The notes beneath the pieces were generated by a model that was not told where the DNA came from, did not search any database, and saw only the letters and a program-made list of their open reading frames with translations. A stretch of DNA of 64,000 bases from Sinosporangium siamense (GTDB taxonomy: Bacteria > Actinomycetota > Actinomycetes > Streptosporangiales > Streptosporangiaceae): the NCBI RefSeq assembly GCF_016863435.1, contig NZ_BOOW01000006.1, positions 496,001 to 560,000 on the forward strand, written 5' to 3'. Shown here piece after piece: positions 31,900-64,000 of the stretch (position 1 is its first letter; the number at the start of each line of letters is the position of its first letter). Both the position numbers and the translations under genes were made by a program.

Positions 31900-32766
31900 T
31901 CAGTCGGTTCTGCGGAACTGGGCGACCGCCATGAGCAGGAAGAACAGCCCGAGGACCGCCACGACCAGGATCTCCACCGCCACCGGCACGGTCCAGTCGC
32001 CCCAGGTGACCCCGGGGTTGTAGACCGCGTGGATCTCGGGTGACGCCTCGACCCGGGCGAACACGGCCTGGCGCACCGGGTCGACGGCATAGGTCAGCGG
32101 GTTGACCAGCGTGATGGTGCCGAGCCAGGACGGCAGGTTCGTCACGGGGAACAGCGCCCCGGACAGGAACGTCAGCGGCATGACCGCCATCTGGGACACG
32201 CCGAGGAACGCCTCCATGCTGGTGATGCGCGCCGCGACCATCGCCCCGAAGGCCGTCATCGTGAGCGCGATCAGGAAGACCAGGCCCGCCATCTGCAAGA
32301 TGAGCACGGGGTCGTACGGCACGCCGACGAGACCGGCGACCGACATGATCGCCATGCCCTGGAGGGTGGCGACGAGGGCGCCGCCGAGGACCTTGCCGAT
32401 CACGATCGCGGTGCGGCTTACCGGGGCCACGAGCATCTCGCGCAGGAAGCCGAACTCGCGGTCCCAGACGATCGAGGCGGCCGAGAACACCGAGGTGGAG
32501 ACGACGATCATGGAGATGACACCGGGGAACATGAACGTCTGCAGATCGACGTCCCCGGGTCCGCCGGGCATGAGCGAACCGAAGCCCGAGCCCAGGACGA
32601 ACAACCAGAGCACGGCCTGGAAGAGCATGGCGACGACGCGGTTACCGTCGTTGGCGAACCTGATCAGCTCGCGTTTGAGCACGATCTTGACGGCCCGCAG
32701 GTTGTGGCCGGTGCCTCGCCTCCCCACATGGGACGCGCGGGCCGGATGGGGCCGGGTGGCGGTCAT
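31900..32766 (-). CDS. ABC-2 type transporter permease (export of the lanthipeptide)
   Basis: A 288-residue integral membrane protein with about six hydrophobic segments (for example VVAMLFQAVLWLFVLGSGF, MIVVSTSVFSAASIV, ILVVAVLGLFFLLMAVAQF) and the ABC-2 signature region around LVNPLTYAVDPVRQAVF, as in DrrB-type drug exporters. It starts three bases after the ATPase stop in the LanKC operon, so it is the membrane half of a two-gene exporter, presumably for the mature peptide or for self-resistance. Confidence 0.85.
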   Translation of the reverse strand: MTATRPHPARASHVGRRGTGHNLRAVKIVLKRELIRFANDGNRVVAMLFQAVLWLFVLGSGFGSLMPGGPGDVDLQTFMFPGVISMIVVSTSVFSAASIVWDREFGFLREMLVAPVSRTAIVIGKVLGGALVATLQGMAIMSVAGLVGVPYDPVLILQMAGLVFLIALTMTAFGAMVAARITSMEAFLGVSQMAVMPLTFLSGALFPVTNLPSWLGTITLVNPLTYAVDPVRQAVFARVEASPEIHAVYNPGVTWGDWTVPVAVEILVVAVLGLFFLLMAVAQFRRTD

Positions 32767-32769
32767 GTC

Positions 32770-33747
32770 TCACCTCACCATCATGTGTTTCCAGCCCTCG
32801 TCCGGGCTCTGCTCCGCGTCGCGAATGGTCGTGCCGGTGTAATTGAGGAACACATCGTCGAGGGACGGGCCGGCCACGTTGACCGACTTGATCGGCACCC
32901 CGAGCTCGGTGAACAGGCGGGGCACGAACTTCTCACCCTCCGGGACCGCGAAGGTGACCGCTCCGTCGCGCAGGACGGCCTCGACGTTGAGGAATTCGCG
33001 CAGCGCCACGACCGCGGCCTCGTCGTCGGCGGTCTGAATGCGCAGGCGGTCGGCGCCGACGGAGGCTTTGAGGTTGCCGGGGCTGTCGAGCGCCACGATC
33101 GCGCCGTGATCCATGATGGCGATGCGATCGCAGTACTCCGCCTCCTCCATGTAGTGCGTCGTCATGAAGATGGTGAGCCGCTCGTGCTTGCGGAGGTCCT
33201 CGATGTACTTCCAGATCGCGGCCCGGGTCTGCGGGTCGAGGCCCACGGTGGGCTCGTCGAGGAACAACACGTCGGGGGAGTGCAGCAGGCCGCGTGCGAT
33301 CTCCAGCCGCCGCCGCATGCCGCCCGAGTAGGTCTCGGCCTTGCTCTTTCTGCGCTCCCACAGGCCGACCATGTCGAGGACCTCCTTCACGCGGTCGTCG
33401 ACGGTCTCCTTCGGCACGCCGTACAACTCCGCGTGGAAGCGGAGGTTCTGCTCGCCGGTGAGGTAGCCGTCCACGGTCGGGTCCTGGAACACCAGGCCGA
33501 TCGACCGGCGCACCTCGTCGCGTTCGAGCACGACGTCGTAACCGGCGACCCACGCCGTGCCGCCGGTGGGCCGGGACAGGGTGCAGAGCATGTTGATCGT
33601 CGTGGTCTTGCCCGCGCCGTTGGGGCCGAGGAAGCCGAACACCTCGCCGCGTGCCACCTCGAAGTCGATGCCCTTGACCGCCTCGACTTCGTCGTACTTC
33701 TTGGCGAGTCCCTGGACGACGAGCGCCGCGCCGCCGTCCGGGCTCAC
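32770..33747 (-). CDS. ABC transporter ATPase, DrrA-like
   Basis: A 325-residue ATPase with Walker A GPNGAGKTT, signature YSGGMRRRLEIARGL, Walker B VLFLDEPTVGLDP, the H-loop TTHYMEEAE, and the roughly 100-residue C-terminal extension ending SLDDVFLNYTG that marks DrrA-type drug and lantibiotic exporters. It starts at GTG 33747, which overlaps the LanKC stop by four bases (GTGA), so it is coupled to the synthetase. The open frame runs much further upstream inside LanKC, but that part is a shadow. It works with the permease at 31900. Confidence 0.9.
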   Translation of the reverse strand: MSPDGGAALVVQGLAKKYDEVEAVKGIDFEVARGEVFGFLGPNGAGKTTTINMLCTLSRPTGGTAWVAGYDVVLERDEVRRSIGLVFQDPTVDGYLTGEQNLRFHAELYGVPKETVDDRVKEVLDMVGLWERRKSKAETYSGGMRRRLEIARGLLHSPDVLFLDEPTVGLDPQTRAAIWKYIEDLRKHERLTIFMTTHYMEEAEYCDRIAIMDHGAIVALDSPGNLKASVGADRLRIQTADDEAAVVALREFLNVEAVLRDGAVTFAVPEGEKFVPRLFTELGVPIKSVNVAGPSLDDVFLNYTGTTIRDAEQSPDEGWKHMMVR

Positions 33748-36344
33748 GCCTGCCCCGTCCGGGGGGAGAAGAACGGGAGGAACGGGATGTCTCCCGGCGA
33801 TGCCGCGGCGGCGACGGCCAGCAGCACACCGGCGCCGCCGGTCGCCAGGTCCATGGACAGCCGGAAGCCGAGGTTGCCGGGGAAGGCCACGTGGCCGCGG
33901 AACGCTATCGCGTGCCAGGAGAGTTCGCGCAGGTGGCGGTCGAGGGTCGTGCGGTCGTAGGTGATCTGGCGCATCCTTGCCAGTGTCGTGATGTGGCCGC
34001 TCTTGCCGCGGAAGAGCCCCGACTGGACCGAAAGCCGCCCGGAGCAGGCGTGCAGCAGCCTGGGCAGCGCTTCGCGCATGCGGTCGTCGTCGCGGTAGTG
34101 CGCCAGTTCGTCGATGACGAGTGCGATGCCCGCGCTGCCGATCTCCAGATAGGGCATCATCCGCACATTGGCCTCCTCCACCATGAGAGCGCCGTGCGAG
34201 TTGACCACGCACAGGTCGAGGTCGCGGTGGACCGCCTGAAGCGCGAGGTCGAGGTAGGCGGTGTCCGACGTCTCCTCATACAGCCGGATGAGGAAGAGCG
34301 CCACGCCGGACCACCCGCGCATCAGCCCGGCCTCGACGGACCTGGGGGCGGGGGGCCGCTCCGGCCTGAGGTGGGGGCGGCCCTCGCGCACCGCGCCGGC
34401 GAGGCGTTCCGCGATCGCGATCGCCTTCTCACGGTGGGCGCCGTCGCCGTGGCGGCGGCCGAAGTGCAGGTGTGCGGCGCCGATCCCGGCGAGCCCGGAG
34501 AAGAGCGTCATACCGCAGTGCTCGGGGGCCGGGTGGCGTTCCAGCAGGTCGGCGGCCTCGTCCTCGTGGCCCAGGTAATCCAGTGTGTAGGCGAGCCCGG
34601 CGACGCCGTCGTAGAAGCCGGGCCGTGGCGCCCGGGATCTGTTCACCGCCTCGATCAGCCACTTCTCGTGGTCGGGGAACCTGCCGTGGCCGGTGACGTC
34701 GAGAGCCCACAACACGCCGGCGGCGCCGTAGGCGAAGGAGAGCCCGCCGGAGACGAACTGCTGCACGTCGCCGGGGAACAGGCGGTCCTGCCGTTCGGGG
34801 GTCGCCGTGCTGAGGATGCCTTCGGCGATGGATCCGCCCACCGCGTCCCAGTCGACGACCGGGGCGTGCACGTCGACGGGGTTCGCCTCCTCCGCCTGCG
34901 CGCCTGCGTGCCCGGCGGGGGCGAGCTCCTTGAGGATCCGCTCCGCCCAGCCGGGAGGGACGGGGAAGTTGTCGGTCATGACCCGGACGAGCTGGAAGAC
35001 CTTGCTCGGCTGGAGCACCGAGATCTTGCTGAAGGACAGGAAGACGGCCAGGCGCACCGCCTCCAGCGCGTGCGTGTCGAGCGCCACGCCCGTTTTGCCG
35101 CGGCCGACGAAGCCGGTGGCGCCCAGTCCCGGACGCCAGTCCGTCCACGACGTATCGAACGCCAGTTCGAAATCGACTAACGCGGCCGTGCCGTCGGGGC
35201 GCACGAGCACATTGCCCAGATGCAGGTCGCCGAAGGCGACATCCCGCTCGTGGATGGCGCCGAGCAGGGCTTCGAGGCTGTCCATGAGCCTCACCGCCTT
35301 GCGGGTGTAGTCCGCGAGTTCGTCTTGCGTGGCCTCGGCTTTGACCACCCAGGGGTGCTGCGTGCCGATCCACACGGCGAGCGGCTCGCCCTCGACGAAC
35401 TCCTCCGCCAGGAACATGTGGTCGTCGACGGAGAACTCGTCGTACCACCGCGGGACGCCGTCGATCCCTTCCAGCTTCCGGAGCGCCCAGCTCTCGGTCT
35501 TGAGCCGGTGCTGGGAGTCGAGGTGGTTGTTGTCCAGAGCGGTGTGCGGCCGCGCCTCCTTGAGTACGGCGGTGACCCCGTCGGTCTGCCGAGTGGCGAC
35601 GTAGACGCCTCCCGCGTTGGAGAAGTGCAGGGCGCGCTCGACGCGATAGGGCGGTCCCTGGCCGGCCTTGCGGCTCTTCCTGGCCTCGGCGTGCGGACGG
35701 AGGACCTCCGGCAGCGGCGCCCACGAGGGGGGATCGAAGTACGGCTTGCGCCTGTCGGGCACCAGGGTGCCGTCCGGGTGGCGGATCGCGAGTGCGGTCT
35801 CCCCGCTCTCGTCCACGCACCGCATCTCCGTGAAGCCGCCGTACCGCACATACAGCGGACCCCCGCCATAGCGGAGATCGCTGAGGATGTACGGCCCGGT
35901 CTCGCCCTCGGTGAGCGCGGACAACTCGCGCAAGGTGGTGGACAGCTCTTCCTCGTCCGCCGGATAGATGGTGATCAGCTTGCTGCCCGACCCGCGCGGT
36001 GTGTACTTCGCGTTGAAGACCAGCAGCATGTTGCGGTTGAGCAGGTGCTTGAACGGGATCCTCCGCGGCACGCAGTAGTCCCAGACCGCGGTGCAGAGGC
36101 GGTCGGCGTTCTCCAGCGTGGCCGAGACGTGGATCTTCCACCCCTGCTCGGGCCCGGGGCGGTCGTCCGGTCGCATCGACTGCCAGACGGTCCGGGGCGC
36201 CCTGGTCCACCCCGCCGGGGTGGGCCGGGAGGAGACGGTGAACTCGCCGTCGGCGATGTATCCCGCCCCCTGCCGCCACAGGCTCGCGTCTTCGAAGAAG
36301 AGAGGATCGGCCAGCGTGTAGATCTGCATCAGCTCGTGCTGCAT
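33744..36344 (-). CDS. Class III lanthipeptide synthetase (LanKC)
   Basis: An 866-residue three-domain enzyme. An N-terminal phosphoSer/Thr lyase domain (about 1-210) is followed by a Ser/Thr-kinase-like domain with the catalytic loop FGDLHLGNVLV (Asp373, Asn378) and metal motif VDFE (Asp391). A LanC-like cyclase domain starts about 510 (GLSFAYGAAGVLWAL, TLFSGLAGIGAAHLHFG, MRGWSGVALFLIRL) and shows no WCxG/CHG zinc triad, the mark of class III rather than class IV. It should phosphorylate, dehydrate and cyclise Ser residues of the 31-residue precursor into a labionin/avionin-type ring. AGGAG precedes the ATG. Codon 389 is TTA. It sits between LanD and the exporter. Confidence 0.92.
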   Translation of the reverse strand: MQHELMQIYTLADPLFFEDASLWRQGAGYIADGEFTVSSRPTPAGWTRAPRTVWQSMRPDDRPGPEQGWKIHVSATLENADRLCTAVWDYCVPRRIPFKHLLNRNMLLVFNAKYTPRGSGSKLITIYPADEEELSTTLRELSALTEGETGPYILSDLRYGGGPLYVRYGGFTEMRCVDESGETALAIRHPDGTLVPDRRKPYFDPPSWAPLPEVLRPHAEARKSRKAGQGPPYRVERALHFSNAGGVYVATRQTDGVTAVLKEARPHTALDNNHLDSQHRLKTESWALRKLEGIDGVPRWYDEFSVDDHMFLAEEFVEGEPLAVWIGTQHPWVVKAEATQDELADYTRKAVRLMDSLEALLGAIHERDVAFGDLHLGNVLVRPDGTAALVDFELAFDTSWTDWRPGLGATGFVGRGKTGVALDTHALEAVRLAVFLSFSKISVLQPSKVFQLVRVMTDNFPVPPGWAERILKELAPAGHAGAQAEEANPVDVHAPVVDWDAVGGSIAEGILSTATPERQDRLFPGDVQQFVSGGLSFAYGAAGVLWALDVTGHGRFPDHEKWLIEAVNRSRAPRPGFYDGVAGLAYTLDYLGHEDEAADLLERHPAPEHCGMTLFSGLAGIGAAHLHFGRRHGDGAHREKAIAIAERLAGAVREGRPHLRPERPPAPRSVEAGLMRGWSGVALFLIRLYEETSDTAYLDLALQAVHRDLDLCVVNSHGALMVEEANVRMMPYLEIGSAGIALVIDELAHYRDDDRMREALPRLLHACSGRLSVQSGLFRGKSGHITTLARMRQITYDRTTLDRHLRELSWHAIAFRGHVAFPGNLGFRLSMDLATGGAGVLLAVAAAASPGDIPFLPFFSPRTGQA

Positions 36345-36384: not shown

Positions 36385-37008
36385 TCACGTGGTAGGCCCC
36401 GGGGCCTCGTCGCCTGCGGTCTCCGCTGCCAGGTCGCGCCGGAGCCCCTCGACGAGCTCGATCACCTTCCACAGCGGCGGGGCGCCCGCGGCGTCCTTCC
36501 GGCCCGTGGTCGCGCTGGTGGCCGCCTGAGTCGGGGCCACCACCACATTGGGGCGCTCCTCCAGCGACTTCAGGTGACCGGTGAACGTCGGGTTCCGCAG
36601 GGCGCCGGGCGGCAGCGAGGGGGCCACGGCGATGGGGGAGGGGGTGCACTGCAGGGCCAGCAGCGCGGGGGTGTCGGCGAGGCCGAGGGCGAGCCGGGAC
36701 ACGAAATTCATGCAGGCGGGGTAGACGATGACGCTGTCGCTCCACTCCGTGAGCCGCACGTGCAGGGCCTGCGCCTGCGGTTCGGCCGGCCAGCGGTCGC
36801 TGATCGTCTCGCGGCCCACGAGCACGCTCAGCGCGTGCGAGCTGACGAACTGCTCCGCGCTCCTGGTGAGCACGACCTCCACCTCAAGCTCCGGATAGGA
36901 GGAGGTCAGCCAGGTGAGCCAGAACGGGAGCTGCATCACCGAGATGGCGCCGCTGCCCACGACGAGCAGACGGCGTGCGCCGAACTCGGGAACCTGGCGT
37001 GCGTTCAT
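36385..37008 (-). CDS. LanD-type flavoprotein peptidyl-cysteine decarboxylase
   Basis: A 207-residue HFCD-family flavoprotein. Seen features are a Rossmann-like start (RRLLVVGSGAISVMQLPFWLTWL), His83 in ALHVRLTEWSD matching the catalytic His of EpiD, the flavin/substrate motif YPACMN (97-101) equivalent to PASANT, and a substrate-clamp region after TPSPIAVAPSLPP. Family members oxidatively decarboxylate a C-terminal Cys to an enethiol that closes AviCys or avionin rings; the precursor here ends in Cys. ATG 37008 overlaps the GNAT stop (ATGA), and LanKC follows 40 bases later. Confidence in the family is high. Confidence 0.9.
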   Translation of the reverse strand: MNARQVPEFGARRLLVVGSGAISVMQLPFWLTWLTSSYPELEVEVVLTRSAEQFVSSHALSVLVGRETISDRWPAEPQAQALHVRLTEWSDSVIVYPACMNFVSRLALGLADTPALLALQCTPSPIAVAPSLPPGALRNPTFTGHLKSLEERPNVVVAPTQAATSATTGRKDAAGAPPLWKVIELVEGLRRDLAAETAGDEAPGPTT

Positions 37009-37667
37009 ATCCGCGACCCCGTGTGATTCCGCAGCTTCTCGAACGGTCTGCGCGCCAGCCATTTGACGCTCTCCACGAAGTAGACCCAGCGGGTCACCGT
37101 GTATTCCTCTTCCGGCTCTTCCTGCGGAGCGCCGTCGATGAGCCGGGAGAGGAGTCCTGCGCCCTGCTCCTCCCACATCTGCCGGCGGACGGAGTAGATG
37201 TAGACGTCCCACAGCCGGCCGCGGAAGAACATGTGCTGGGGAAGGGTGGCCTCCCGTGTCGCCGTCCTGCTCATGGCGCCGAAGCGGGCCAGGCTGGCGT
37301 CGGTCGTCATGAAATAGACCTTCCTGAGTTCGCCCCAGCGGGTGAACGCGTAGTTCATGAGCAGCATCATCGCCTCGCCGCCGACGCCGTATCCGGCCCG
37401 CTCCTGGTCAAGGAAGATGCCGGCCTGGATGTGCCCGGCCGGATCGAGGCCCTGTAAGGAGGCGAAACCCACCGTCTCGTCGGACTGCCGGGCTCTGACG
37501 ACGAACTGCACATCGACCCAGTCGTTGTCGAATGACGCGACGAACGATTCCAGTGGGGGCAGGCTGTGCAGACCGAGCTTCAGCAGAAGCCGATAGAGCG
37601 TGGTCGCGTCCTTGGCGTCGGCGGGGACAAGAGCCGTCCGCGGAGTCTCGACATGGAGAATGAGCAC
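37005..37667 (-). CDS. GNAT-family N-acyltransferase, first gene of the LanKC operon
   Basis: A 220-residue GNAT-fold protein with central strands VQFVVRARQSDETVGFASLQGLD, the MLLMNYAFTRWGELRKVYFMTTDASLARF region and a C-terminal tail. It is a clear relative of the second GNAT at 58641 (shared ETVGFASL/RTVGFASL, NYAF..W..RKVYF). In goadvionin a GNAT joins a long acyl chain to the N-terminus of the avionin peptide, and the same role is likely here, from the ACP at 58336. GTG 37667 is chosen by comparison with the paralogue start. Its stop is coupled to LanD. Confidence 0.8.
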   Translation of the reverse strand: MLILHVETPRTALVPADAKDATTLYRLLLKLGLHSLPPLESFVASFDNDWVDVQFVVRARQSDETVGFASLQGLDPAGHIQAGIFLDQERAGYGVGGEAMMLLMNYAFTRWGELRKVYFMTTDASLARFGAMSRTATREATLPQHMFFRGRLWDVYIYSVRRQMWEEQGAGLLSRLIDGAPQEEPEEEYTVTRWVYFVESVKWLARRPFEKLRNHTGSRI

Positions 37668-38440
37668 GTGCCGCCCCCTGGACTTCTCACTCGAATTTGA
37701 AAATCGGATTTCAAACCCGCTCAACAGGTCATGGCCCCTGCGGTTTCCCGGAGACGTGATTTCAGGGACGCCGGTGATTTGCCGATCAACTCTGCCGAGA
37801 AGCATATGGCTTCCGCCTCGGACGCATCGGTCGCATCGGTCGCAGAAGCATCAGACGGCCGAACACTAGTTTTGGACGCCGCGCCGAGTCAATTGGGCCG
37901 CATGGCAGGCCCGCGTGGCGCTCGCCCCCGCCTCCCCCTGTTTTCCAGTGAAGTCTTGCCGTGAGCGTCTCGCCGGCGGGACGTGGCGCCGGCGAAATTC
38001 TCCGGCGGCGGCGCCGGCTGGAAACGTCCGCCCGCGGTGAGTGCCGGCGTCAGGGCGCCGAGCCGGTGCCGGCGGTGCGCATCTCCGATGTTCAACCGGC
38101 CCGCGTGGTCCACCGTACGCGTGCGCCGGCCTCGCGTCGGACCGGGCCGCCCGGCCGGGGGCGGGGGAGCGGAGCCGATCACCCGCTGCTCCGCCGAGGC
38201 TTTCCCGGGCGTCCGGCCGGCGCGTTGACGGGTTATTTCGCTTGGTGTGGGATCGGCGTTTTACCAGTTTTCGGCCGTGGTGCTGCATTTCCCCGCGTGG
38301 GATTCCGTACGGCTTTTCGAGCGATGGCTGTTGATTAAACAGAGCGGATATGTCAGCTTTTATTTGCCGACGCGGTCCGAATGGCCTGGCCCCCTCGGCC
38401 GGCCACTTCGACCGGGGAAGAATGAAAAGGAGGTGTGACC
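37668..38440. promoter_or_regulatory. Divergent control region between the LanKC operon and the precursor gene
   Basis: About 770 bases with no supported gene. It contains the regulatory palindrome at 37967-37982, an imperfect palindrome CTGTTGATTAAACAG at 38328-38342, and a strong ribosome site AAAAGGAGGTG just before the precursor ATG. The last 200 bases are AT-richer than the cluster average, fitting a strong promoter for the precursor. Confidence 0.6.
37967..37982. promoter_or_regulatory. Cluster palindrome, copy 1 (GTCTCGCCGGCGGGAC)
   Basis: An inverted repeat GTCTCGC-CG-GCGGGAC lies 300 bases upstream of the GNAT/LanD/LanKC operon start and 460 bases upstream of the precursor. Identical half-sites occur at 46674, 59292 and 63559, each in a divergent intergenic region. 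The core CGCCGGCG equals the palindrome I recall being reported for LmbU binding. It is probably the operator of the cluster regulator. Confidence 0.7.
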
Positions 38441-38536
38441 ATGGACCTGTCCAACATTCTCGAGCTCCAGGAGCTTGAGCCGGCGCCCGAGTACGCGGAG
38501 CTGCCCGGTAGCAACAACAGCACGATCACCTGCTGA
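38441..38536 (+). CDS. Lanthipeptide precursor, avionin type (31 residues)
   Basis: A short gene with an excellent ribosome site (AAAAGGAGGTG, six bases before ATG). The leader holds ILELQELE (residues 6-13), the class III box recognised by LanKC. The peptide ends in SNNSTITC (residues 24-31): Ser24-x2-Ser27-x3-Cys31 with Cys as last residue, exactly what LanKC plus LanD need to build an avionin. The likely core is these eight residues after LPG; whether a few more remain after leader removal is unknown. It diverges from the LanKC operon and is followed by a strong hairpin. There is only one copy. Confidence 0.9.
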   Translation: MDLSNILELQELEPAPEYAELPGSNNSTITC

Positions 38537-55633: not shown

Positions 55634-57472
55634 TCAGCGACCGCCCTGGCCGAACTCGCCGCGGAGGTACATCTCGCGGCAGGCGCCGCGCCGGACCTTC
55701 CCGCTCGTCGTCCGCGGCAGCGCGCCACGGCGCACCATAATGACGTCATGCGCGATCAGGCCGTGATGGCGTGAGATCTCACTGCGCAGAGACTGAACGA
55801 TTTCTCGCCGCTCGTCCTCGCCTGCGTCGAGGGTCTCCCTCGTGCTCTCGATGAGGACGATCAGGTGTTCCGCACCTCCGGTTCCCGCATCCGCGTCGCC
55901 ACCGCCGGCCTTGACGGCGAACGCGGCTGCCGAGTCGACGGGGCTCGCCGCGAGAACCGTCGACTCGATGTCCTCCGGATAGTGGTTCCGGCCGCGGATG
56001 ATGATCAGGTCTTTGACCCGTCCCGCCACGTGAAGCCGGCCGTCGAGCAGGAAGCCCAGGTCGCCGGTCCGCAACCACGAGCCCTCACTCTCGGTGCCGT
56101 CCGGGTTCAGAAGACGCCCGGCGAACACCTCGGCCGATCGCTCCGGCCGCCCCCAGTAACCGTCGGCGACATTCGGCCCGCTCACCCAGATCTCCCCGAC
56201 CTCGCCCTCCCGCTTGGCACGGTTGTCACCGGGATCGACGATCCGTACGGTGACCCCGGCGTGCGGCGGGCCGCAGTCGACGAGGCGAACAGCCCCGGGG
56301 GCGCCCGCCGCGCACAGGACGGCCCGCCCCTCGCCCAGCGCGACACGATCGATGTGGCGATCGGTCACTCCCTCACCCACCGGGGTGCCGGTGACCGGAA
56401 GGGTGGCCTCGGCAAGGCCATAGCAGGGCGTCGGGACCGCCGGCGCCATCCCGCACGAGGCGAACGCGGCGGCGAACGCCTCGGTCACCTCGGCGTACAC
56501 CGGCTCGGCGGCGACGCTGATCGTGCGCAGGCAGCTAAGGTCCAGGGTGCGTTTCTGTTCCTCGGTGACGCGGCGCACGCAGTGCAGCAGTGTGGAGGGA
56601 GGGGTTACGCTCCAGTCGGCCCGGTGGTCGCTGATCGCGCGCAGCCAGCGAGACGGGTCCTGAATGAAGGCCATCGGACTGAGGTGGACCGCGTGGGCGC
56701 CGGCGCTGAGCGGCGCCACGATCCCGCAGATCAACCCGAAGTCATGGAAGAACGGGAGCCAGGACACCACGGTGGCCGCGGGAAAGTGAGCGTAGAGCTG
56801 CTCCACTGCGACCGCCATGTTCTCCCGGGTGACTCGGACACCCGCGGGTGTCCGAGTGGAGCCGGAGGTGTATTGCAGGCAGGCGGGCGATCCCGGCGGG
56901 AGATCACGTCTCCGCCAGGCCGCGCCTGAGCCTGCCGCGACCACGTCCACGTCGATCACATGAGAGGGCTTGCGGTCCATCCGATCGAGCACCCCCGCCA
57001 CCGCCGTGTGCGCGGTGGTCGTGGTGAGAACGCAGGTGGGAAGGCAGTCGCCCATGGCCGACGACAGCCGGTCGTTCGCACGCATGCTCTCGGGGGCGTA
57101 GAGGGGAACCGCCACGACTCCCGCGTAGTCGCAGGCGAGGAACGCCACGACATAGTCGAGCCCCTGACGGCAGAGCACCGCCACCCGGGCACCGGGGGCG
57201 CACCGAAACTGGAGTTCCGCCGCTACGGCGCGGGCCCGCCGGTCGAGTTGGGCGTAGGTCAGCGTGGTCGCCGTGCCGCCCTCGCGAGTGCCGCTCCCAC
57301 GCCTGATCCCGTAGTCCAGGAACGTGACAGCGGGGGAGTTCCCGGACACCTCTGCGAAGTATCGGACCGCGTCCCCGAGATGGCGCGGCGGGCGGTGGTC
57401 GGACGATGCGCCGGATACCGGTCCCTGGATGGTGGTGTCGCTGTCCTGCGAAACGCCGATATCCGTGCTCAT
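55634..57472 (-). CDS. Fatty acyl-AMP ligase (FAAL)
   Basis: A 612-residue adenylating enzyme. Seen are YTSGSTRTPAGV (A3), SWLPFFHDFGLICGIVAPL (FAAL-type in place of the CoA-ligase pattern), TPCYGLAEATLPV (A5), WLRTGDLGFLLDGRLHVAGRVKDLIIIRGRNHYPEDIE (A7-A8) and LPRTTSGKVRRG (A10, catalytic Lys). The family activates a free fatty acid as acyl-AMP and loads it on a carrier protein, here almost certainly the ACP at 58336. It starts 24 bases after the LmbU-like stop and begins a run FAAL-aminotransferase-three glycosyltransferases. No PKS or FAS gene is near. Confidence 0.88.
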   Translation of the reverse strand: MSTDIGVSQDSDTTIQGPVSGASSDHRPPRHLGDAVRYFAEVSGNSPAVTFLDYGIRRGSGTREGGTATTLTYAQLDRRARAVAAELQFRCAPGARVAVLCRQGLDYVVAFLACDYAGVVAVPLYAPESMRANDRLSSAMGDCLPTCVLTTTTAHTAVAGVLDRMDRKPSHVIDVDVVAAGSGAAWRRRDLPPGSPACLQYTSGSTRTPAGVRVTRENMAVAVEQLYAHFPAATVVSWLPFFHDFGLICGIVAPLSAGAHAVHLSPMAFIQDPSRWLRAISDHRADWSVTPPSTLLHCVRRVTEEQKRTLDLSCLRTISVAAEPVYAEVTEAFAAAFASCGMAPAVPTPCYGLAEATLPVTGTPVGEGVTDRHIDRVALGEGRAVLCAAGAPGAVRLVDCGPPHAGVTVRIVDPGDNRAKREGEVGEIWVSGPNVADGYWGRPERSAEVFAGRLLNPDGTESEGSWLRTGDLGFLLDGRLHVAGRVKDLIIIRGRNHYPEDIESTVLAASPVDSAAAFAVKAGGGDADAGTGGAEHLIVLIESTRETLDAGEDERREIVQSLRSEISRHHGLIAHDVIMVRRGALPRTTSGKVRRGACREMYLRGEFGQGGR

Positions 57473-57496: not shown

Positions 57497-58207
57497 TTAG
57501 TGCTTACTGTCGGCCTGGGCGATCTCCCTCACAGGTCCGGGAGCTGAGCCGCCGTTCAGCTGTGGGTAGCCGTCCTTCACATCCAGCGTCGACCTGGCGG
57601 CGTTGTCCAGGATGGAGATGATCCAGGTCAGCAGATCCTGCTCGTGGGTCTTGGCCGCCTCTTGCCAGAGTTCCTTCTGCGGAGCTATGACACTCATCTG
57701 GATGTGAGTGACCTCCACGGCGCTCTGGCCGACGGTGCGGCCGGCCTTGATGCGCCGCCTCAGTTCGTTCCGAGACCACTTGAACCTCTCGGCCTTGTTG
57801 AGCCAGCTCTCCTGCTCCGCCTCCGGCAGGCTCGCGACCTCGGCGTGGTGCTGGAAGCTGAGCTTGTCCCGCCGCCGCGGCACGCTGAACTGCCTGGCCA
57901 CCCAGGCGTAGTTGCGCAGCGTCTGGTAGTCGAGCGACGTCTCGGCCACCGCACGCTTGTATCTGTCGGGGTATTGCGCCTGCCCGTAGATGAGCCAGTC
58001 GCCGAGCCACCACGCGGAAGAGTCCGAAATGATGAATATCTGCCGCCCCAAACGACTCCACTCGGCGATCGGCATGCCGACGGGCAGAGCGAGCGCGGTC
58101 CGTCTGGTCAAGCCGGGGCCGTTTAATGAGAGGCGATTGTTGTGGATGGGCTCGATCGGGTTGCGGTCCGTAGCCGCTAGGTGCTGGTGACCGTTCCCCT
58201 TGGGCAT
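57497..58207 (-). CDS. LmbU/NovE-family cluster regulator
   Basis: A 236-residue protein with the LmbU-family core: SSAWWLGDWLIYGQAQYPDRYKRAV, SLDYQTLRNYAWVARQFSVPRRRDKLSFQHHAEVASLP and WSRNELRRRIKAG. These proteins (LmbU, NovE, HrmB) are DNA-binding activators of antibiotic clusters. Codon 28 is TTA, so translation probably depends on the bldA tRNA. The palindromes at 37967, 46674, 59292 and 63559 are its likely targets. It is transcribed with FAAL and the sugar and glycosyltransferase genes, 128 bases after the ACP gene. Confidence 0.85.
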   Translation of the reverse strand: MPKGNGHQHLAATDRNPIEPIHNNRLSLNGPGLTRRTALALPVGMPIAEWSRLGRQIFIISDSSAWWLGDWLIYGQAQYPDRYKRAVAETSLDYQTLRNYAWVARQFSVPRRRDKLSFQHHAEVASLPEAEQESWLNKAERFKWSRNELRRRIKAGRTVGQSAVEVTHIQMSVIAPQKELWQEAAKTHEQDLLTWIISILDNAARSTLDVKDGYPQLNGGSAPGPVREIAQADSKH

Positions 58208-58335: not shown

Positions 58336-58635
58336 TTATGAGCCGGCCTCTTGTTTAGGAAGCCGTTCAACGATGAAATCGGCTAGTTCGGCGAATGTCT
58401 TGCCGGAAAACGCGGCCATCTCATCAAGTAGTGGTATGCCGTACTTGTCTTCCAGGGCCAGGACCAGCAGCACGTAAGAGAAGGAGTCGAGCCCCCCGAG
58501 ATCGGTGAGCTCTGGGATATCGCCCAGGTCCAGCATCTCGTTCGCCGCCATCTCCTCGTTGCTGAAGAGAAGGATCTTGAGCGCCTCCCGCTCAACGCTG
58601 TCCTGGACTTCCTTCTTGACGTTCGCCACGACCAT
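58336..58635 (-). CDS. Acyl carrier protein
   Basis: A 99-residue protein, acidic and helical, with the phosphopantetheine site GGLDSFSYV (Ser51) and the second-helix pattern LLVLALEDKYGIPL typical of ACPs. It stands alone rather than in a PKS, five bases after the GNAT gene. It would carry the fatty acyl group loaded by FAAL and present it to one or both GNAT acyltransferases. Confidence 0.85.
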   Translation of the reverse strand: MVVANVKKEVQDSVEREALKILLFSNEEMAANEMLDLGDIPELTDLGGLDSFSYVLLVLALEDKYGIPLLDEMAAFSGKTFAELADFIVERLPKQEAGS

Positions 58636-58640: not shown

Positions 58641-59231
58641 TCAGTGTCCTTCCATGCGGGGCCGGTCTGTCTGGTCCTCGGCCGAGCCGAGCGGGGTCTG
58701 CACAAGCCGTGCCAGGGTTCGCGGGCCCTCAGGCACCCACTGCTCCCGGTAGACGGCGGAGATATAGAGGTCACGAAGCTGCCCGCGGTCATACAGATGC
58801 TCTGAGAGCGTCGCCTCGTGGGCCGGCTTGAGAAAGGCACTACGGGCCTCGAAGCCGGTGTCCGCCGTCCAGAAGTAGACCTTCCTGATATTCCACATGG
58901 CAAAGGCGTAGTTGACGACGAGCATGGTCGCCTCCTCCGCCGTGCCGTCCGACGCCGCGCTCTCGTCGGTTACCACGCTCGCCTGAACGTGTCCGCCCGC
59001 CTGGTCGAGGTGGTGTAATGAGGCGAAGCCAACCGTCCTGCCGTTCTCGCGGCGTTCGACCATGAATTTGGCGGAGATGTCGCTCAGGTGCATCATCGCG
59101 AACAACTCCGCCGAGGAGAGATTCTCCAGACCGGCTTTCTGGAGGAGTTCGTAGACGGTGACCCCGTCTGGCGGATCGGCCGGCCGGAGCAGCGTCCTGC
59201 CGGTTTTGACATGCGGAAAGAGCACTGTCAT
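58641..59231 (-). CDS. Second GNAT-family N-acyltransferase
   Basis: A 196-residue GNAT relative of the gene at 37005 (FPHVKTGRTLLRPADPPDGVTVYELLQKAGL, ENGRTVGFASLHHLDQAG, LVVNYAFAMWNIRKVYFWTADTGFEARSAF). It lies directly before the ACP in the same operon and next to the palindrome at 59292, so acyl-ACP is its probable donor. One of the two GNATs should acylate the peptide N-terminus, the other perhaps an amino sugar; the sequence does not show which. Confidence 0.8.
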   Translation of the reverse strand: MTVLFPHVKTGRTLLRPADPPDGVTVYELLQKAGLENLSSAELFAMMHLSDISAKFMVERRENGRTVGFASLHHLDQAGGHVQASVVTDESAASDGTAEEATMLVVNYAFAMWNIRKVYFWTADTGFEARSAFLKPAHEATLSEHLYDRGQLRDLYISAVYREQWVPEGPRTLARLVQTPLGSAEDQTDRPRMEGH

Positions 59232-59291: not shown

Positions 59292-59307
59292 GTCTCGCCA
59301 GCGGGAC
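59292..59307. promoter_or_regulatory. Cluster palindrome, copy 3 (GTCTCGCCAGCGGGAC)
   Basis: It lies between the divergent GNAT/ACP operon and the nitrososynthase-like/glycosyltransferase 4 operon, 61 bases from the GNAT start. The sequence around it is nearly identical to copy 2. Confidence 0.8.
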
Positions 59308-59565
59308 AGACGCTAGTTCTGACGTGCTCGGACAGTCAAGCCATTCCCGATGCGCGCCCCGTGTGCGAAACGATTCCATAAAATCTGCCGATCGGGCGTG
59401 GCCCGGCACCCCGGATCGCTATTGACCGGGGCAGGATTATTTAGGAATCCCGGGCCGCTCGGATTATGTCCGATCTCTTGTCATGCGGCCGCCGAATGGA
59501 CATCGTATTCGGTGGCGCAGATCTACAGGCCGGTTCGCACCGGAGGGAAGTGGGATGAGAACAGA

Positions 59566-60804
59566 ATGACACTGCAGATCGAGAAATCGCCGATCGTGGG
59601 GTCGCTTCGCGAGCCGATCACCCCGGAAGGCCGCGACCTGCTGGACATCGTCACGACGCATCTTCCCGCGATCGGTGCGGTGGCTGCGGAGAACGACAGG
59701 CAGGGCACCTTTCCGGCCGCCGTCTTCGAAGGGTTACGCAAGGACGGCGTCATGGGCGGGACGGTCCCCACCGAGTTCGGTGGGTTCGGCGTCGGGTGCA
59801 TGCACGACGTCGCTCTTGTGCTCATGAAGGTCGCCGAAGCCGACGCCTCCACAGCGCTGGCCCTGCATATGCAGCTCAGCCGCGGCCTGACACTGGCCTA
59901 CGAATGGCGGAGGGGGTCGTCGGTCGCGCGGTCGCTCGCCGAACGGGTCCTGCGCAAGATGGGCACGGAAGGCGCGGTCGTCTGCACGGGCGTCAAGGAC
60001 GCCCCCAAGGGCGGCATCGTCACGACGCTGCTCCCCGCCGAGGGGGGCGGCTGGACCTTGTCCGGACGTAAGACCTTGGTGAGCCTCGCGCCGATCGCCA
60101 CGGACTTCGCCATCTACGCACGCGCCCACGTCCCCGACGGTCCTCCCCGCTACGCGCTCGCCGTCCTGCCCAGGCAGTCGCCCGGCCTGACGGTGCTCGA
60201 CAACTGGGACGGCCTCGGCATGCGCGCCTCGGGCACCGTCGACATCGTCTTCGACAACTGCCCGATCGCGCCGGAGGACGTCCTCCTGCGCGAGGTCGCG
60301 GGTGAGCGGAACATCGCCATTCTCGCGGGGCAGACGGTCAGCTCCATCGCGATGCTGGGGATCTACACGGGCGTCGCCCAGGCCGCGCGCGACCTGGCGG
60401 TCGGTCAGCTCAAGCGGCGCGGCAAGGTGACCTCGGGCGCGGTGCGGACGCTGGTGGCCGAAATGGACGCCCGGCTGTTCACCCTGCGCTCCTCGGTCGC
60501 CGGCGCCCTCGCGGTCGCCGACGCCCTCGCCTATGACGAGGTGACCGATCCGGCGGAGCGCGGCCTTCAGATGATGACGCCGTTCCAATGCGCGAAGCTG
60601 ATGGTCAACCGGCTGGCTCCGGCGATCGTCTCCGATTGCCTCACGGTGGTCGGCGGCGCGTCGTATTCCGGGTCCAATCCGCTGTCGCGGCTCTACCGCG
60701 ACGTCCGCGCCGGCGGCTTCATGCAGCCGTACACCTACCCCGACGCCGTGGACTACCTGAGCGGTCAGGTGTTCGGGCCCCTCGATGAAGGACAGCAGGG
60801 ATAG
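59566..60804 (+). CDS. Acyl-CoA-dehydrogenase-fold flavoenzyme, probable amino-sugar nitrososynthase (KijD3/DnmZ-like)
   Basis: A 412-residue protein of the acyl-CoA dehydrogenase fold. Segments such as AAENDRQGTFPAAVFEGLRKDGV, ADASTALALHMQLSRGLTLAYEW, DNWDGLGMRASGTVDIVFDNCPI and GGASYSGSNPLSRLYRDVRAGGFMQPYTY are what I recall for KijD3, DnmZ and EvrORF36, flavin monooxygenases that oxidise amino sugars to hydroxylamino/nitroso/nitro sugars. It shows no YEGT-type catalytic Glu loop of true dehydrogenases. The setting (2,3-dehydratase, 3-aminotransferase, C-methyltransferase, glycosyltransferase next door) supports this. A role in fatty-acyl desaturation is the alternative. Codon 57 is TTA. 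ATG 59566 was chosen over an upstream frame to 59350. Confidence 0.75.
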   Translation: MTLQIEKSPIVGSLREPITPEGRDLLDIVTTHLPAIGAVAAENDRQGTFPAAVFEGLRKDGVMGGTVPTEFGGFGVGCMHDVALVLMKVAEADASTALALHMQLSRGLTLAYEWRRGSSVARSLAERVLRKMGTEGAVVCTGVKDAPKGGIVTTLLPAEGGGWTLSGRKTLVSLAPIATDFAIYARAHVPDGPPRYALAVLPRQSPGLTVLDNWDGLGMRASGTVDIVFDNCPIAPEDVLLREVAGERNIAILAGQTVSSIAMLGIYTGVAQAARDLAVGQLKRRGKVTSGAVRTLVAEMDARLFTLRSSVAGALAVADALAYDEVTDPAERGLQMMTPFQCAKLMVNRLAPAIVSDCLTVVGGASYSGSNPLSRLYRDVRAGGFMQPYTYPDAVDYLSGQVFGPLDEGQQG

Positions 60805-60812: not shown

Positions 60813-62084
60813 ATGCGAGTACTATTCACAGCTTATGCTGAGAAGGCGCACTTCCTCGGCATGGTGCCGTTGGCGTGGGCCATGCAGAACGCGGGTCACG
60901 AGGTCCGGGTCGCCAGCCAGCCCGAACTGACCGACGTCATCACCCGCGCGGGACTCATCGCGGTCCCCGTCGGCAAGGACCACATTCTGCACAAGCTCGA
61001 CCACGGCCATGATCCCGGGGCGGACTTCGACTTCGACTTCGCGGAAACCCGCGAGGAGAAGCTCACCTGGGACTACGTGAAGAGCGGTTACGGCGATCTG
61101 TTCGTGCCCTGGTGGGCGCGGGTCGTCAACGATCCGATGATCGGCCAGCTCACGGAGTTCGCCCAGCAGTGGAAGCCGGATCTGGTGATCTGGGAACCGG
61201 TCACCTTCGCCGGCGCCATCGCGGCCAAGGTGTGTGGCGCGGCGCATGCTCGCTTCCTGTGGAGCATCGACCTGTTTGCCATGATGCGGGCGCGCTACAT
61301 GCAGTTTGTCAATGAAAAGCAGGATGTGCGGCAGGACGCTCTGCGGCGCTGGATCGACAACAGAGCCGAGAGGTTCGGAGCGTCCTTCTCCGAGGACATG
61401 GCCAGCGGGCACTTCACCATCGACTGCCTGCCCCCCTCGGTGCGGTTGCGGTTCGACGTCGACGTGAAGTACCAGTCGATGCGTTACGTGCCCTACAACG
61501 GGGTCGCCGAGCTGCCGAGGTGGCTGCGTGAGGATCCGGAGCGCCCGCGCGTGGCCATCACGCTCGGCACCTCGGCGACCGAACGCGTGGGCAACCTGCC
61601 GATCTCCGTACAGAACGTTCTCGATGCCGTCGCCGACCTCGACATCGAGGTCGTGGCGACGCTGCCGGAGGAGGAGCAGGCCAAGCTCACGGCCGTGCCG
61701 GACAACACCAGGCTGGTGCCGTTCGTGCCGCTGGACGCTCTGGCGCCGACCTGCTCGGCGGTGATCAACCACGGCGGCGGGGGCACCTTCATGACCACGC
61801 TGGTGCGGGGTGTGCCGCAGCTCATCCTGCCCTTCATGTTCGACGACGCGATGCGCGCGCGGCGGCTGGCCGCGGCCGGCGCGGGGATGAGCATGGAGAA
61901 GGGCGACGTGAGCACGGACACGGTGCGCACGAAGCTGCTGGCCCTGCTTGAGCAGCCGTCCTACAAGGAGAACGCCGCCAAGCTCCGGGACGAGGCCATG
62001 AGCATGCCCAGCCCGAGCGACTTCGTGCCCGAGCTTGAGCGCCTCACGGCCGAACACCGCGACGCGGCGGTCTCCGGCGCCTGA
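60813..62084 (+). CDS. Glycosyltransferase 4 (activator-dependent type)
   Basis: A 423-residue relative of the three leftward glycosyltransferases: MRVLFTAYAEKAHFLGMVPLAWAMQNAGHEVRVASQPEL, VAITLGTSATERVGNLPISVQ and INHGGGGTFMTTLVRGVPQLILPFMFD. It starts eight bases after the nitrososynthase-like gene, suggesting that it transfers that enzyme's sugar. No DesVIII/EryCII-type activator gene is visible in the window. Confidence 0.88.
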   Translation: MRVLFTAYAEKAHFLGMVPLAWAMQNAGHEVRVASQPELTDVITRAGLIAVPVGKDHILHKLDHGHDPGADFDFDFAETREEKLTWDYVKSGYGDLFVPWWARVVNDPMIGQLTEFAQQWKPDLVIWEPVTFAGAIAAKVCGAAHARFLWSIDLFAMMRARYMQFVNEKQDVRQDALRRWIDNRAERFGASFSEDMASGHFTIDCLPPSVRLRFDVDVKYQSMRYVPYNGVAELPRWLREDPERPRVAITLGTSATERVGNLPISVQNVLDAVADLDIEVVATLPEEEQAKLTAVPDNTRLVPFVPLDALAPTCSAVINHGGGGTFMTTLVRGVPQLILPFMFDDAMRARRLAAAGAGMSMEKGDVSTDTVRTKLLALLEQPSYKENAAKLRDEAMSMPSPSDFVPELERLTAEHRDAAVSGA

Positions 62085-62670: not shown

Positions 62671-63444
62671 CTACCGGCGGCCGGAGGCCGGCGAGCCGTC
62701 GCCGAGCAAGCCCGTCGACTCGAGATAGCGGTCGATGACCGAGCGGTAATACTCGGGGCCGTAGTCCTCGTCGGTGACGGACGGCAGCACACGGCGCAGC
62801 TTCTCGACGGAGATCCAGTGCTCCGTGCCCTCGTCGATGACGTTCCGTTTGGGAGCGAGCCCAAGGCGGTGCTCCAGGTGGTCAAGGATCAGGCTGATCG
62901 GCACCGACTGCCCCGAGGCCATGTTGAGCACCTCGTGGGTGATGCCCGCGGTGAGGATCTTGTCGAGGAGCGACACCCAGTCGTCGACGTAGATGATGTC
63001 GCGCCTGGCCTGGCGATAGACCGTGACACTGCCCGACGTCATCTGATCGATCAGTGCGGGCATCAGGCGGTTGGCCGGGCCGCCGGGCCCGACGACATAG
63101 CCGAGCCGGAGGATGAGGTGTTTGACCCCTGAATCCCGGACGAGCTGCTCCAGTTTCAGCTTGTGCCAGCCGTAAGGAGTGACCGGGACGATTTCCTCGT
63201 CTTCTCGTCCGCTGCAACCGGGTGCGCCGTACATGCTCATTGACGCGGTCGACAGGAACACCAGCGTCCGGCCTTCGAGCACGCACCGTTTGTTGATTTT
63301 CTGGACGAGTTCGGTCTCTCGTTCGTAGTCGTCGTCGGAGTTCTTCCAAAGAGACACTCCTGCGGCGAGAACGAGTACGTCCGGGTGCGCGTCGGCAATC
63401 TGCTGGAGATGGTGAGCGAGAAATCCATTTCCAACGATCTCCAT
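62671..63444 (-). CDS. NDP-sugar 4-ketoreductase (NAD-dependent epimerase/dehydratase family)
   Basis: A 257-residue short SDR: Rossmann start MEIVGNGFLAHHL, LVFLSTASMSMYG, the catalytic TPYGWHKLKLEQLV (YxxxK) and LRLGYVVGPGGPANRLMPALI. It resembles the 4-ketoreductases (EvaE/DnmV-like) that finish deoxysugars. ATG 63444 puts the nucleotide-binding motif at the N-terminus; a frame to 63486 exists. The palindrome at 63559 lies upstream. It is probably the last step for one of the dTDP sugars. Confidence 0.7.
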   Translation of the reverse strand: MEIVGNGFLAHHLQQIADAHPDVLVLAAGVSLWKNSDDDYERETELVQKINKRCVLEGRTLVFLSTASMSMYGAPGCSGREDEEIVPVTPYGWHKLKLEQLVRDSGVKHLILRLGYVVGPGGPANRLMPALIDQMTSGSVTVYRQARRDIIYVDDWVSLLDKILTAGITHEVLNMASGQSVPISLILDHLEHRLGLAPKRNVIDEGTEHWISVEKLRRVLPSVTDEDYGPEYYRSVIDRYLESTGLLGDGSPASGRR

Positions 63445-63558
63445 TAAGGCACCGCTTTCAAACTCATGGCTCGGTGTCGGTTCCACTGCCCCCGTGCGGG
63501 GGGCGCCGAGACTCGTGTCGGATGAGGTGGCAGAAGAATGAAGACGGCATCACCATGT

Positions 63559-63574
63559 GTCCCGCCAGCGAGAC
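63559..63574. promoter_or_regulatory. Cluster palindrome, copy 4 (GTCCCGCCAGCGAGAC)
   Basis: Here the dyad extends to 18 bases (TGTCCCGC-CA-GCGAGACA, 63558-63575), so the repeat is perfect outside the central two bases. It lies between the divergent 4-ketoreductase and the ATPase regulator, 114 bases from the former. Confidence 0.8.
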
Positions 63575-63776
63575 ACGGTGAAGGCCGGTGGCAGGCGCTT
63601 TCCCTCGGTGTTTCCACAGGCATGAAATCCTATTTCTACGATCGTGCCGGACTGCGATGCGAAGAGCAAGATGTGCGCGGTTCCACGCGGAGTGCGTGAA
63701 GCGGGACGGCCGGATGATTCCCGAATTTTGTATGGTGTGCTCACGACAATAGGCCGGGGAATGAGGGGGTCGGCGT

Positions 63777-64000
63777 GTGAAGATGCTGGAACGTGATGAC
63801 GAGTTCGCTCTTCTGCGCGGTCTGCTGGCCGAATGCCGCAAAGGATTGGGCAGCGCGACGACCATCACAGGGGCGGTCGCGTCGGGAAAGACGGAGTTGT
63901 TGCACGCCTTCTCCGCGGAGGTGGCCGGCGGGGGGGTGCCGGTCCTGAGTGCCCTCGCCTCGTCGGCGGAGCGCACGCTGCCGCTCGGCGTGGTGGGCCA
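63777..64000 (+). CDS. N-terminus of a large ATP-binding LuxR-type regulator (LAL), cut by window end
   Basis: About 74 residues are visible: MLERDDEFALLRGLLAECRKGLGSATTITGAVASGKTELL, with a Walker A GAVASGKT about residue 32, as at the N-terminus of LAL (MalT-like) regulators with a C-terminal LuxR helix-turn-helix. GTG 63777 is preceded by AGGGGG seven bases upstream. The frame is open to the right edge. It is divergent from the 4-ketoreductase across the palindrome at 63559, so it is probably a second cluster regulator. Confidence 0.7.
   Translation, partial: MKMLERDDEFALLRGLLAECRKGLGSATTITGAVASGKTELLHAFSAEVAGGGVPVLSALASSAERTLPLGVVG

Follow-up and report, generated by a model that had tools for sequence, protein, structure and literature searches.

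Peptide and putative coumarate genes at the locus

We analyzed 64,000 nucleotides of Sinosporangium siamense DNA (contig NZ_BOOW01000006.1, positions 496,001 to 560,000), hereafter the window, which is part of contig C6 of an 8.86 Mb genome. It contains the beginning of a lanthipeptide gene cluster of about 48 kb, which starts at window position 31.9 kb and runs to about 79.8 kb, some 16 kb beyond the window end. The original prediction, made from the letters of the window, had ended the cluster at 64,000. Positions in the right flank are given as continued window coordinates (position in locus L002 plus 59000). The genes at the center of the analysis are those for a class III lanthipeptide and a ligase/ammonia-lyase operon right of the window, a coumarate branch that had been overlooked.

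33744..36344, minus strand: LanKC, class III lanthipeptide synthetase (NF038151, 957.6 bits, cut-off 575)
36385..37008, minus strand: LanD-type cysteine decarboxylase (PF02441; nearest solved structure CypD, 76.9 bits)
38441..38536, plus strand: precursor peptide gene, ATG start, 31 amino acids ending GSNNSTITC, MDLSNILELQELEPAPEYAELPGSNNSTITC
74045-75193: short ligase, best NCBIfam match 4-coumarate-CoA ligase (48 bits, cut-off 335)
75190-76707: aromatic ammonia-lyase, putative tyrosine ammonia-lyase (PF00221, 402 bits)

The first three genes had been named in the original prediction, and their assignments held up. The precursor gene is directly preceded by AAGGAGG and encodes a short peptide with an ILxLQ-type leader and a Ser/Cys core. 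It is 91% identical to its relative in genome G121, and its synonymous codon differences from the precursors of G121, G621 and G590 number 7, 9 and 10 against 1, 1 and 7 non-synonymous ones, respectively. LanKC matches RamC_N and LANC_like above their cut-offs and Pkinase just below, and contains GDLHLGN and DFE motifs; the lyase, kinase and cyclase parts of a class III synthetase are all found. LanD scores 100 bits on the CypD-family model, which is below the cut-off of 215. The source genome also has a second LanKC (45% identical; G000:C11:17259-19811), on a contig without the ligase.

Relatives were collected with a ligase profile (A1) built from five sequences. Of 341 genomes from the family, 27 contain the ligase, and a named collection (Streptomyces, Nonomuraea, Nocardiopsis, Streptomonospora, Glycomyces and Amycolatopsis) yielded 15 loci. 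These sets overlap, and 33 distinct clusters, own included and all collected by the ligase, were compared; the gene presence counts take in only matches that reach preset identity and coverage thresholds. Of the 33, 17 have LanKC no more than 40 kb away from the ligase, and these represent four or more named genera (Streptomyces, Nonomuraea, Nocardiopsis and Streptomonospora); four of the Streptomyces records bear NRRL, CGMCC or JCM strain names in their titles. In G004, which belongs to the window's own genus, and in G568 LanKC is on another contig, either cut by its end or 2.6 kb short of it; these clusters look split and are not counted in the 17. LanKC is absent near the ligase in nine clusters, and five contig-limited ones (G576, G133, G056, G597 and G046) are uninformative on this point. 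For G674, one side of the ligase could be read over about 25 kb only; in G693, which has a single chromosome, a LanKC lies 2.7 Mb away from the ligase.

Counting own cluster, 15 of the 17 with LanKC yielded precursors, and one more was found in G004. The motif scan, which required a leader-like motif, a ribosome-binding-like site and a Ser/Cys core and would miss other kinds, found none in the LanKC clusters G561 and G694 and none in the nine LanKC-negative clusters, read over at least 40 kb. Several clusters have more than one precursor (three in G174, four each in G545 and G584, five in G582). The five variants in G582:C1 and the four in G584:C2 lie close together and amount to a natural core-peptide library. 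The core reads PGSNNSTITC in own cluster, G121 and G621, PGSGASTITC in G590, GSTGSVxC in Streptomyces and SSASxKxC in G063, and is of the SGxS type, mostly with a short tail, in Nocardiopsis-like clusters. The lipolanthine core rule is SxxSxxxC, the ending that had been predicted; it fits the cores of own cluster, G121, G621, G590 and G063, and the Streptomyces core is SxxSxxC. LanD together with LanKC was found only in own cluster, G121, G590 and G621, and all four precursors end in TITC. Precursors that end in Cys also occur where no LanD was found: those of the Streptomyces clusters, two of the three in G063 and two of the five in G582. It is very likely that avionin is formed from the precursor. 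As avionin keeps its sulfur, the expected loss is 2 H2O + CO2 + 2 H, and the loss of H2S that the original prediction had included is not expected.

Both the ligase (by manner of collection) and the lyase are present in all 33 clusters. In every one of them the lyase carries an Ala-Ser-Gly (ASG) cofactor motif and His-Leu at the selectivity position, a pair that we take to indicate tyrosine selectivity.

The collinear copy and the shared operator

Genome G590, of the same family as the source genome and with the same genus label as G121, holds 36 of the 39 cluster genes, with order and relative orientation kept. The block begins with the exporter permease (31900), ends with the small protein (79213) and includes the precursor (76% identity). 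Three genes have no in-order counterpart: the ATPase (32770), the SARP gene and one copy of the duplicated glycosyltransferase pair. An extra LmbU-like and an extra fatty-acyl-AMP ligase (FAAL)-like stretch lie inside the G590 block. G590 also has a second ligase (C79). A near-complete copy of the cluster exists in another genus, and partial relatives exist elsewhere. From this collinearity it follows that the cluster measures about 48 kb and that the coumarate operon and the sugar genes belong with LanKC. We are confident that all parts form one cluster.

A palindrome, GTCYCGCCNGCGRGAC, recovered by a 20-mer comparison, joins these operons. It had been noticed in the window, where it has four exact sites; a fifth lies in the cluster beyond the window, and there are six exact places in the genome. 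The sites and the regulators are the following (ACP, acyl carrier protein; KS, ketosynthase).

37967..37982: operator before GNAT1-LanD-LanKC, 162 bases upstream of GNAT1, exact match
46673..46688: operator at the head of FdtA-aminotransferase / 2,3-dehydratase, exact match
59292..59307: operator between GNAT2-ACP-LmbU-FAAL and the nitrososynthase, exact match
63559..63574: operator between the ketoreductase and the AAA/LuxR regulator, exact match
Beyond the window: fifth in-cluster operator, at SARP / KS-ACP-ligase-lyase, exact match
57497..58207, minus strand: LmbU-family regulator, candidate operator binder (NF038070, 231 bits, cut-off 125)
63777-65237, plus strand: AAA/LuxR regulator, starting in the window and running past 64000
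69978-72095: SARP-type regulator

Because five of the six exact palindromes lie here, we read the peptide, sugar and acyl operons as one regulon, as judged from the sequence. With one mismatch allowed, the genome has 21 forward and 18 reverse matches versus 12 and 13 for the reversed pattern. With two mismatches the window has 9 versus 4.2 expected, a count that 7 of 100 shuffles reach and that is unexceptional. In 27 clusters there are one to nine sites each at no more than one mismatch, and zero to two for the reversed control; at two mismatches the excess over this control shrinks or vanishes in several clusters (4 versus 5 in G545). All 17 LanKC clusters have a site in the 1.5 kb preceding the ligase or its KS/ACP head gene (at 1.3 kb in G121 and G621), and 13 of them also have one in the same interval before LanKC or a GNAT; the reversed control gives none.

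The LmbU site is given as CGCCGGCG in the part of the source available (PMC6510168). The operator centre resembles it, although only the site at 37967 reads CGCCGGCG, the other four having CGCCAGCG or its complement. A longer guessed LmbU-like motif was dropped, as its 13 matches compare with 7.5 expected and 8 of 100 shuffles reach that number. An LmbU homologue was not found in the parts read of 8 of the 27 site-bearing clusters, which makes another regulator possible. In our reading, the cluster is probably switched by an LmbU-type regulator that would act at this palindrome.

The original prediction would be refuted, by its own terms, if the sugars belonged to a polyketide encoded just right of 64 kb. 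No modular polyketide synthase or nonribosomal peptide synthetase is found among the called and annotated genes up to 79 kb, the protein at 79213 being unannotated, while the operons share the operator and are collinear in G590. This case is not supported. Two further genes mark the flanks.

30309-31736: cytochrome-P450-like gene left of the cluster (Pfam match covers the C-terminal part only)
79213-79782: small protein, function not annotated

Membership of the P450-like gene in the cluster is not supported, as it has only 24-29% matches elsewhere and is not conserved with the cluster. Also of note are genes for tRNA-Val, tRNA-Cys and tRNA-Gly in a row at window positions 4411-4668, which are ordinary.

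Acyl, sugar and export genes

Scans with Pfam and NCBIfam recover the two GNATs, the FAAL and the ACP of the original prediction, and the right flank adds a ketosynthase and another ACP.

37005..37805, minus strand: GNAT1, putative peptide N-acyltransferase (PF13302 and PF00583 just above cut-off)
55634..57472, minus strand: FAAL (PF00501; NF004509, 501 bits, below the cut-off of 775)
58336..58635, minus strand: acyl carrier protein (PF00550, 20.9 bits, cut-off 20.8; LDSF serine motif)
58641..59231, minus strand: GNAT2, second acyltransferase (PF00583 just above cut-off)
72291-73655: FabF-like ketosynthase
73747-74004: acyl carrier protein of the ligase operon

The peptide is likely to be N-acylated. 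Goadvionin reportedly uses a GNAT, and GNAT1 matches a RimJ/RimL-like PDB structure (2.4e-5). In the GNAT tree, a GNAT1 group (15 rows, support 96/93) and a GNAT2 side (21 rows, 85/71) stand apart from a separate Streptomyces group. In own cluster and G590, GNAT1 adjoins the precursor and LanKC, and in G174, G183, G545 and G582 the precursor lies between the GNAT1 and GNAT2 genes, twice in G174 and G545. This place beside precursors weakens the view of GNAT2 as a purely sugar-side enzyme, although own cluster may differ.

The FAAL passes the filters in 11 of the 33 clusters and in 8 of the 17 with LanKC; FAAL-like matches of 26-27% in G174 and G183 fell under them. It occurs in the same 11 clusters as the ligase-operon ACP, and the ketosynthase is present in six of those 11. 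Because of this exact coincidence, the FAAL looks tied to the coumarate branch, and the gene pattern makes it look like part of a coumarate-extending subtype rather than a general acyl source. The original prediction, an N-acylated avionin peptide bearing deoxysugars, thus stands as far as one avionin-type cluster with acyl and sugar tailoring genes is concerned; an acyl chain from the FAAL alone is not supported as stated. An N-coumaroyl cap fits better, since the ligase (by manner of collection) and the lyase accompany LanKC in 17 of 17 clusters versus 8 of 17 for the FAAL. As for a long fatty or polyketide chain on the N-terminus, the cluster does have the FAAL, the ketosynthase and two ACPs, but the FAAL goes with LanKC in only those 8 clusters.

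These counts bear on two alternatives. In the first, the FAAL would load a fatty acid on the ACP, a GNAT would acylate the peptide N-terminus as in other lipolanthines, the sugars would sit directly on side chains and coumarate would decorate elsewhere. The FAAL, ACP and GNATs for it are present, and in the Streptomyces clusters the FAAL, a GNAT and LanKC are near neighbours. However, given the distribution of the FAAL among LanKC clusters and its tie to the coumarate branch, we consider this alternative unlikely. In the second, there would be two acyl groups, a fatty or extended one on the N-terminus and coumarate on a sugar amino or hydroxyl group, with the GNATs dividing the work. Two ligases, two ACPs and two GNATs in the cluster would suit such a division, as would the position of own GNAT2, 9 bases from the ACP and 20 kb from LanKC, and the aminotransferase and 2,3-dehydratase that accompany the ligase and lyase in six of the nine LanKC-negative clusters. 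It is made quite unlikely by the GNAT1-precursor-GNAT2 arrangement without a FAAL in G174, G183, G545 and G582, a unit that is doubled in G174 and G545.

The sugar genes comprise ten donor genes in the window, in agreement with the predicted minimum of ten, and thirteen in the whole cluster. Glycosyltransferases number four in the window (starting at 50599, 51861, 53143 and 60813), as predicted, and five in total.

42481..43860, plus strand: nucleotide-sugar 6-dehydrogenase, UDP-glucose dehydrogenase type (TIGR03026, 374 bits, cut-off 190)
43865..44848, plus strand: SDR like UDP-glucuronate decarboxylase, pentose branch (UXS1 structure 167 bits; best 8vr2, 182 bits)
45033..46217, minus strand: sugar aminotransferase, DesV type (PDB 2oga, presumably DesV, 513 bits)
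46133..46690, minus strand: FdtA-type 3,4-ketoisomerase, longest reading (PF05523, 154.8 bits)
46784..48220, plus strand: NDP-hexose 2,3-dehydratase (PF03559, 524 bits)
48233..49231, plus strand: GFO/IDH-type oxidoreductase, putatively of the 3-ketoreductase type (PF01408 and PF22725)
49345..50571, plus strand: sugar 3-C-methyltransferase (TcaB9 648 bits; another sugar 3-C-methyltransferase structure 643 bits)
50599..51852, minus strand: glycosyltransferase, recent duplicate of the next gene (77% identical to 51861-53207)
51861..53207, minus strand: glycosyltransferase (TIGR04516, 551 bits, cut-off 440)
53143..54462, minus strand: glycosyltransferase (TIGR04516, 521 bits)
54478..55587, minus strand: sugar aminotransferase, DegT/DnrJ (PF01041, 375.7 bits)
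59350..60804, plus strand: amino-sugar N-oxygenase, nitrososynthase (4kcf, presumably KijD3, 508.5 bits; 3mxl 468.9; DnmZ 440.7)
60813..62084, plus strand: glycosyltransferase (PF21036 and PF06722; 62% in G590)
62671..63486, minus strand: NAD-dependent epimerase-family protein, putative ketoreductase (PF01370; 69% in G590)
65201-66211: RmlB
66234-67109: RmlA
67811-69097: fifth glycosyltransferase
69171-69893: N,N-dimethyltransferase (3bxo, which we take to be DesVI, 309 bits)
77169-79178: AknOx-like oxidase (538 bits), with a twin-arginine-like stretch, SRRGFLATIAATG

The true FdtA start is probably lower, since the operator lies inside its frame. The DegT/DnrJ aminotransferase is 67-82% identical in the other clusters that pass a 60% filter. 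From these genes we infer three sugars: RmlA, RmlB, FdtA, the DesV-like aminotransferase and the dimethyltransferase would give a dimethylamino-dideoxyhexose; the 2,3-dehydratase, the second aminotransferase, the TcaB9-like C-methyltransferase and the nitrososynthase a branched (C-methylated) nitro/amino-trideoxyhexose; and the UDP-glucose-dehydrogenase-type enzyme with the UDP-glucuronate-decarboxylase-like SDR a pentose. The nitrososynthase is close to 4kcf, 3mxl and DnmZ, and the C-methyltransferase to TcaB9, all of which presumably serve antibiotics of the kijanimicin, tetrocarcin and everninomicin kind. The nitrosugars of kijanimicin, tetrocarcin and everninomicin decorate polyketides or orthosomycins.

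The tandem glycosyltransferases at 50599-53207 are a recent duplication, and G590 has one. A glycosyltransferase tree of 110 rows shows lineage-specific expansions, by which a single glycosyltransferase common to all clusters was rejected, and contains one clade of nine RmlA-adjacent genes without a member from own cluster.

Two ABC systems account for the two transporters of the original prediction. A 54-65% homologue of the DrrA-type ATPase is found in 8 of the 32 other clusters; the only G590 match, at 34%, is outside the collinear block.

31900..32766, minus strand: ABC-2 permease, exporter 1 (PF01061, 123 bits; 60% in G590, collinear)
32770..33768, minus strand: DrrA-type ATPase, exporter 1, start uncertain (TIGR01188, 358 bits, cut-off 312)
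38800..39741, plus strand: ABC ATPase, exporter 2 (PF00005; 70% in G590)
39772..40944, plus strand: ABC-2 permease, exporter 2 (PF12698; 60% in G590)
40941..42095, plus strand: ABC-2 permease, exporter 2 (PF12698; 61% in G590)

The proposed product and its relation to known systems

On balance, we favor the explanation that the product of this regulon, some 48 kb long, is a class III lanthipeptide with avionin that is both glycosylated and N-aroylated (N-coumaroyl). Gene content, synteny and the operator come from sequence, from which we infer every chemical step, the acyl identity and the attachment points. LanKC would phosphorylate and dehydrate both serines of the ...SNNSTITC core, LanD would oxidatively decarboxylate the C-terminal Cys, and the three residues would close into avionin. 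The leader would be removed by a protease encoded outside the cluster; none was recognised among the annotated genes, in which no search was aimed at one. The tyrosine ammonia-lyase would convert tyrosine to p-coumarate, which the short ligase would activate onto ACP or CoA. In the FAAL/KS subtype represented here, the coumaroyl chain would perhaps be lengthened, or a fatty acyl unit added to it. One or both GNATs would move the acyl group to the new peptide N-terminus, and the five glycosyltransferases would build a deoxysugar chain, most likely starting at the coumaroyl phenol, from the dimethylamino-dideoxyhexose, the C-methylated nitro/amino-trideoxyhexose and the pentose. The two ABC systems would export the product, and the AknOx-like oxidase, probably Tat-secreted, would finish a sugar outside the cell. 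For N-coumaroyl avionin cores before any sugar is added, the calculated [M+H]+ would be 903.37 with SNNSTITC, 960.39 with GSNNSTITC and 1057.44 with PGSNNSTITC, and more with a lengthened acyl chain.

The model for the acyl part is the saccharomicin pathway (sam, Saccharothrix espanaensis), to which the likeness is drawn from published descriptions. According to the available parts of the sources, a tyrosine ammonia-lyase and the acyl-CoA-synthetase-like Sam7, a ligase by proposal, are assigned to the cinnamoyl aglycone, Sam20 attaches the first sugar (fucose) to the p-phenol of caffeoyl-taurine, and this cinnamoyl amide is the core that bears deoxy-amino sugars, put on by many glycosyltransferases (PMC3469384, PMC8234114). 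The same parts give taurine as the amine partner, ten glycosyltransferases and the 4-coumarate 3-hydroxylase Sam5, whereas here a lanthipeptide is the proposed partner, there are five glycosyltransferases and no such hydroxylase was recognised. It is because of this analogy that we place the lanthipeptide amine where saccharomicin has taurine. A coumaroyl group would probably, if with some reserve, be the peptide's acyl or its starter, and the chances that the sugars sit on the coumaroyl phenol appear about even.

The LanKC-negative clusters of G693 (C1:3150001-3210000), G082 (C8) and G148 (C14) have eight or nine glycosyltransferases, the ligase and the lyase, as well as RmlA, 2,3-dehydratase and aminotransferase, and are likely saccharomicin-like oligosaccharide clusters. 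With the operator before their ligase, they lend some credit to a third alternative, in which the locus would make two co-regulated products, an avionin peptide and a separate saccharomicin-like coumaroyl oligosaccharide. Such a split is very unlikely, as 17 of 33 clusters, spread over four or more named genera, keep LanKC and the ligase no more than 40 kb apart and 13 have the operator at both ends, and as the LanKC-negative clusters yielded no precursor (0/9), no search having been made for another amine acceptor. A FAD-dependent halogenase-like frame was seen by eye near the Nocardiopsis terrae ligase-lyase cluster (L056, 18228-19808), which has no LanKC nearby.

A number of observations weigh against an N-coumaroyl, glycosylated avionin peptide. 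The ligase match is weak, 48 bits versus a cut-off of 335, and is also below the Pfam AMP-binding cut-off. The best PDB matches of the lyase are histidine lyases, and the enzyme could instead be an aminomutase. Ligase and lyase are about 18 kb apart in G121, and G621 has no lyase within 10 kb of the ligase. The nine clusters without LanKC nearby have both genes, most of them together with sugar genes, and the operator precedes the ligase in seven of the nine; the coumarate may therefore be destined for the sugars and not for the peptide. In four of the 17 LanKC clusters (G054, G063, G561 and G584) no operator lies upstream of LanKC or a GNAT. GNAT2 of own cluster and G590 is 20 kb from the precursor side, beside the ACP, and LanKC-minus rows make up 13 of 49 in the GNAT set (two from G004), which tells against a strict GNAT-LanKC link. 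A plain coumaroyl cap would need neither the FAAL nor the ketosynthase. Finally, the three scanned glycosyltransferases belong to an activator-dependent family, and no activator was recognised among the annotated genes, in which no search was aimed at one.

The peptide part has its closest counterparts in the lipolanthines (microvionin, nocavionin, goadvionins and nocaviogua), where LanKC and LanD likewise lead one to expect avionin and N-terminal acylation; in the available parts of the sources the chain is long, either fatty or polyketide, and sugars are not mentioned (PMC10435860, PMC10373908). The present cluster differs in its coumarate branch, thirteen sugar genes and five glycosyltransferases. 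Cacaoidin, a lanthipeptide, carries a disaccharide. NAI-112, also a glycosylated class III lanthipeptide, has labionin and, in the parts available, one deoxyhexose N-linked to Trp by AplG, whereas the core here is without Trp (PMC10373908, PMC12328550). Among the literature matches listed, NAI-112 and cacaoidin are the glycosylated lanthipeptides and the lipolanthines the acylated ones, and no coumaroylated or multiply deoxyglycosylated LanKC peptide appears in the titles and abstract openings of this open-licence literature. Each enzyme family is known; the combination of coumarate, several sugars and a LanKC peptide is new to us.

A broader proposal, which we hold only tentatively and at somewhat less than even chances, is that of a widespread new antibiotic family in which a lanthipeptide replaces the taurine of saccharomicin. 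Its members would be N-coumaroyl avionin or labionin peptides whose phenol bears amino, nitro and pentose sugars, all under one operator. If this is true, a ribosomal avionin peptide, a phenylpropanoid and a rare-sugar chain would form a new structural type of natural product, with peptide, phenylpropanoid and oligosaccharide chemistry meeting in one molecule. By comparison, NAI-112 has one deoxyhexose and the lipolanthines have plain acyl chains, as far as the available parts of the sources go (PMC10435860, PMC10373908). The cluster also offers sets of GNATs and glycosyltransferases for peptide engineering, and the regulator-operator pair may provide a handle for waking it.

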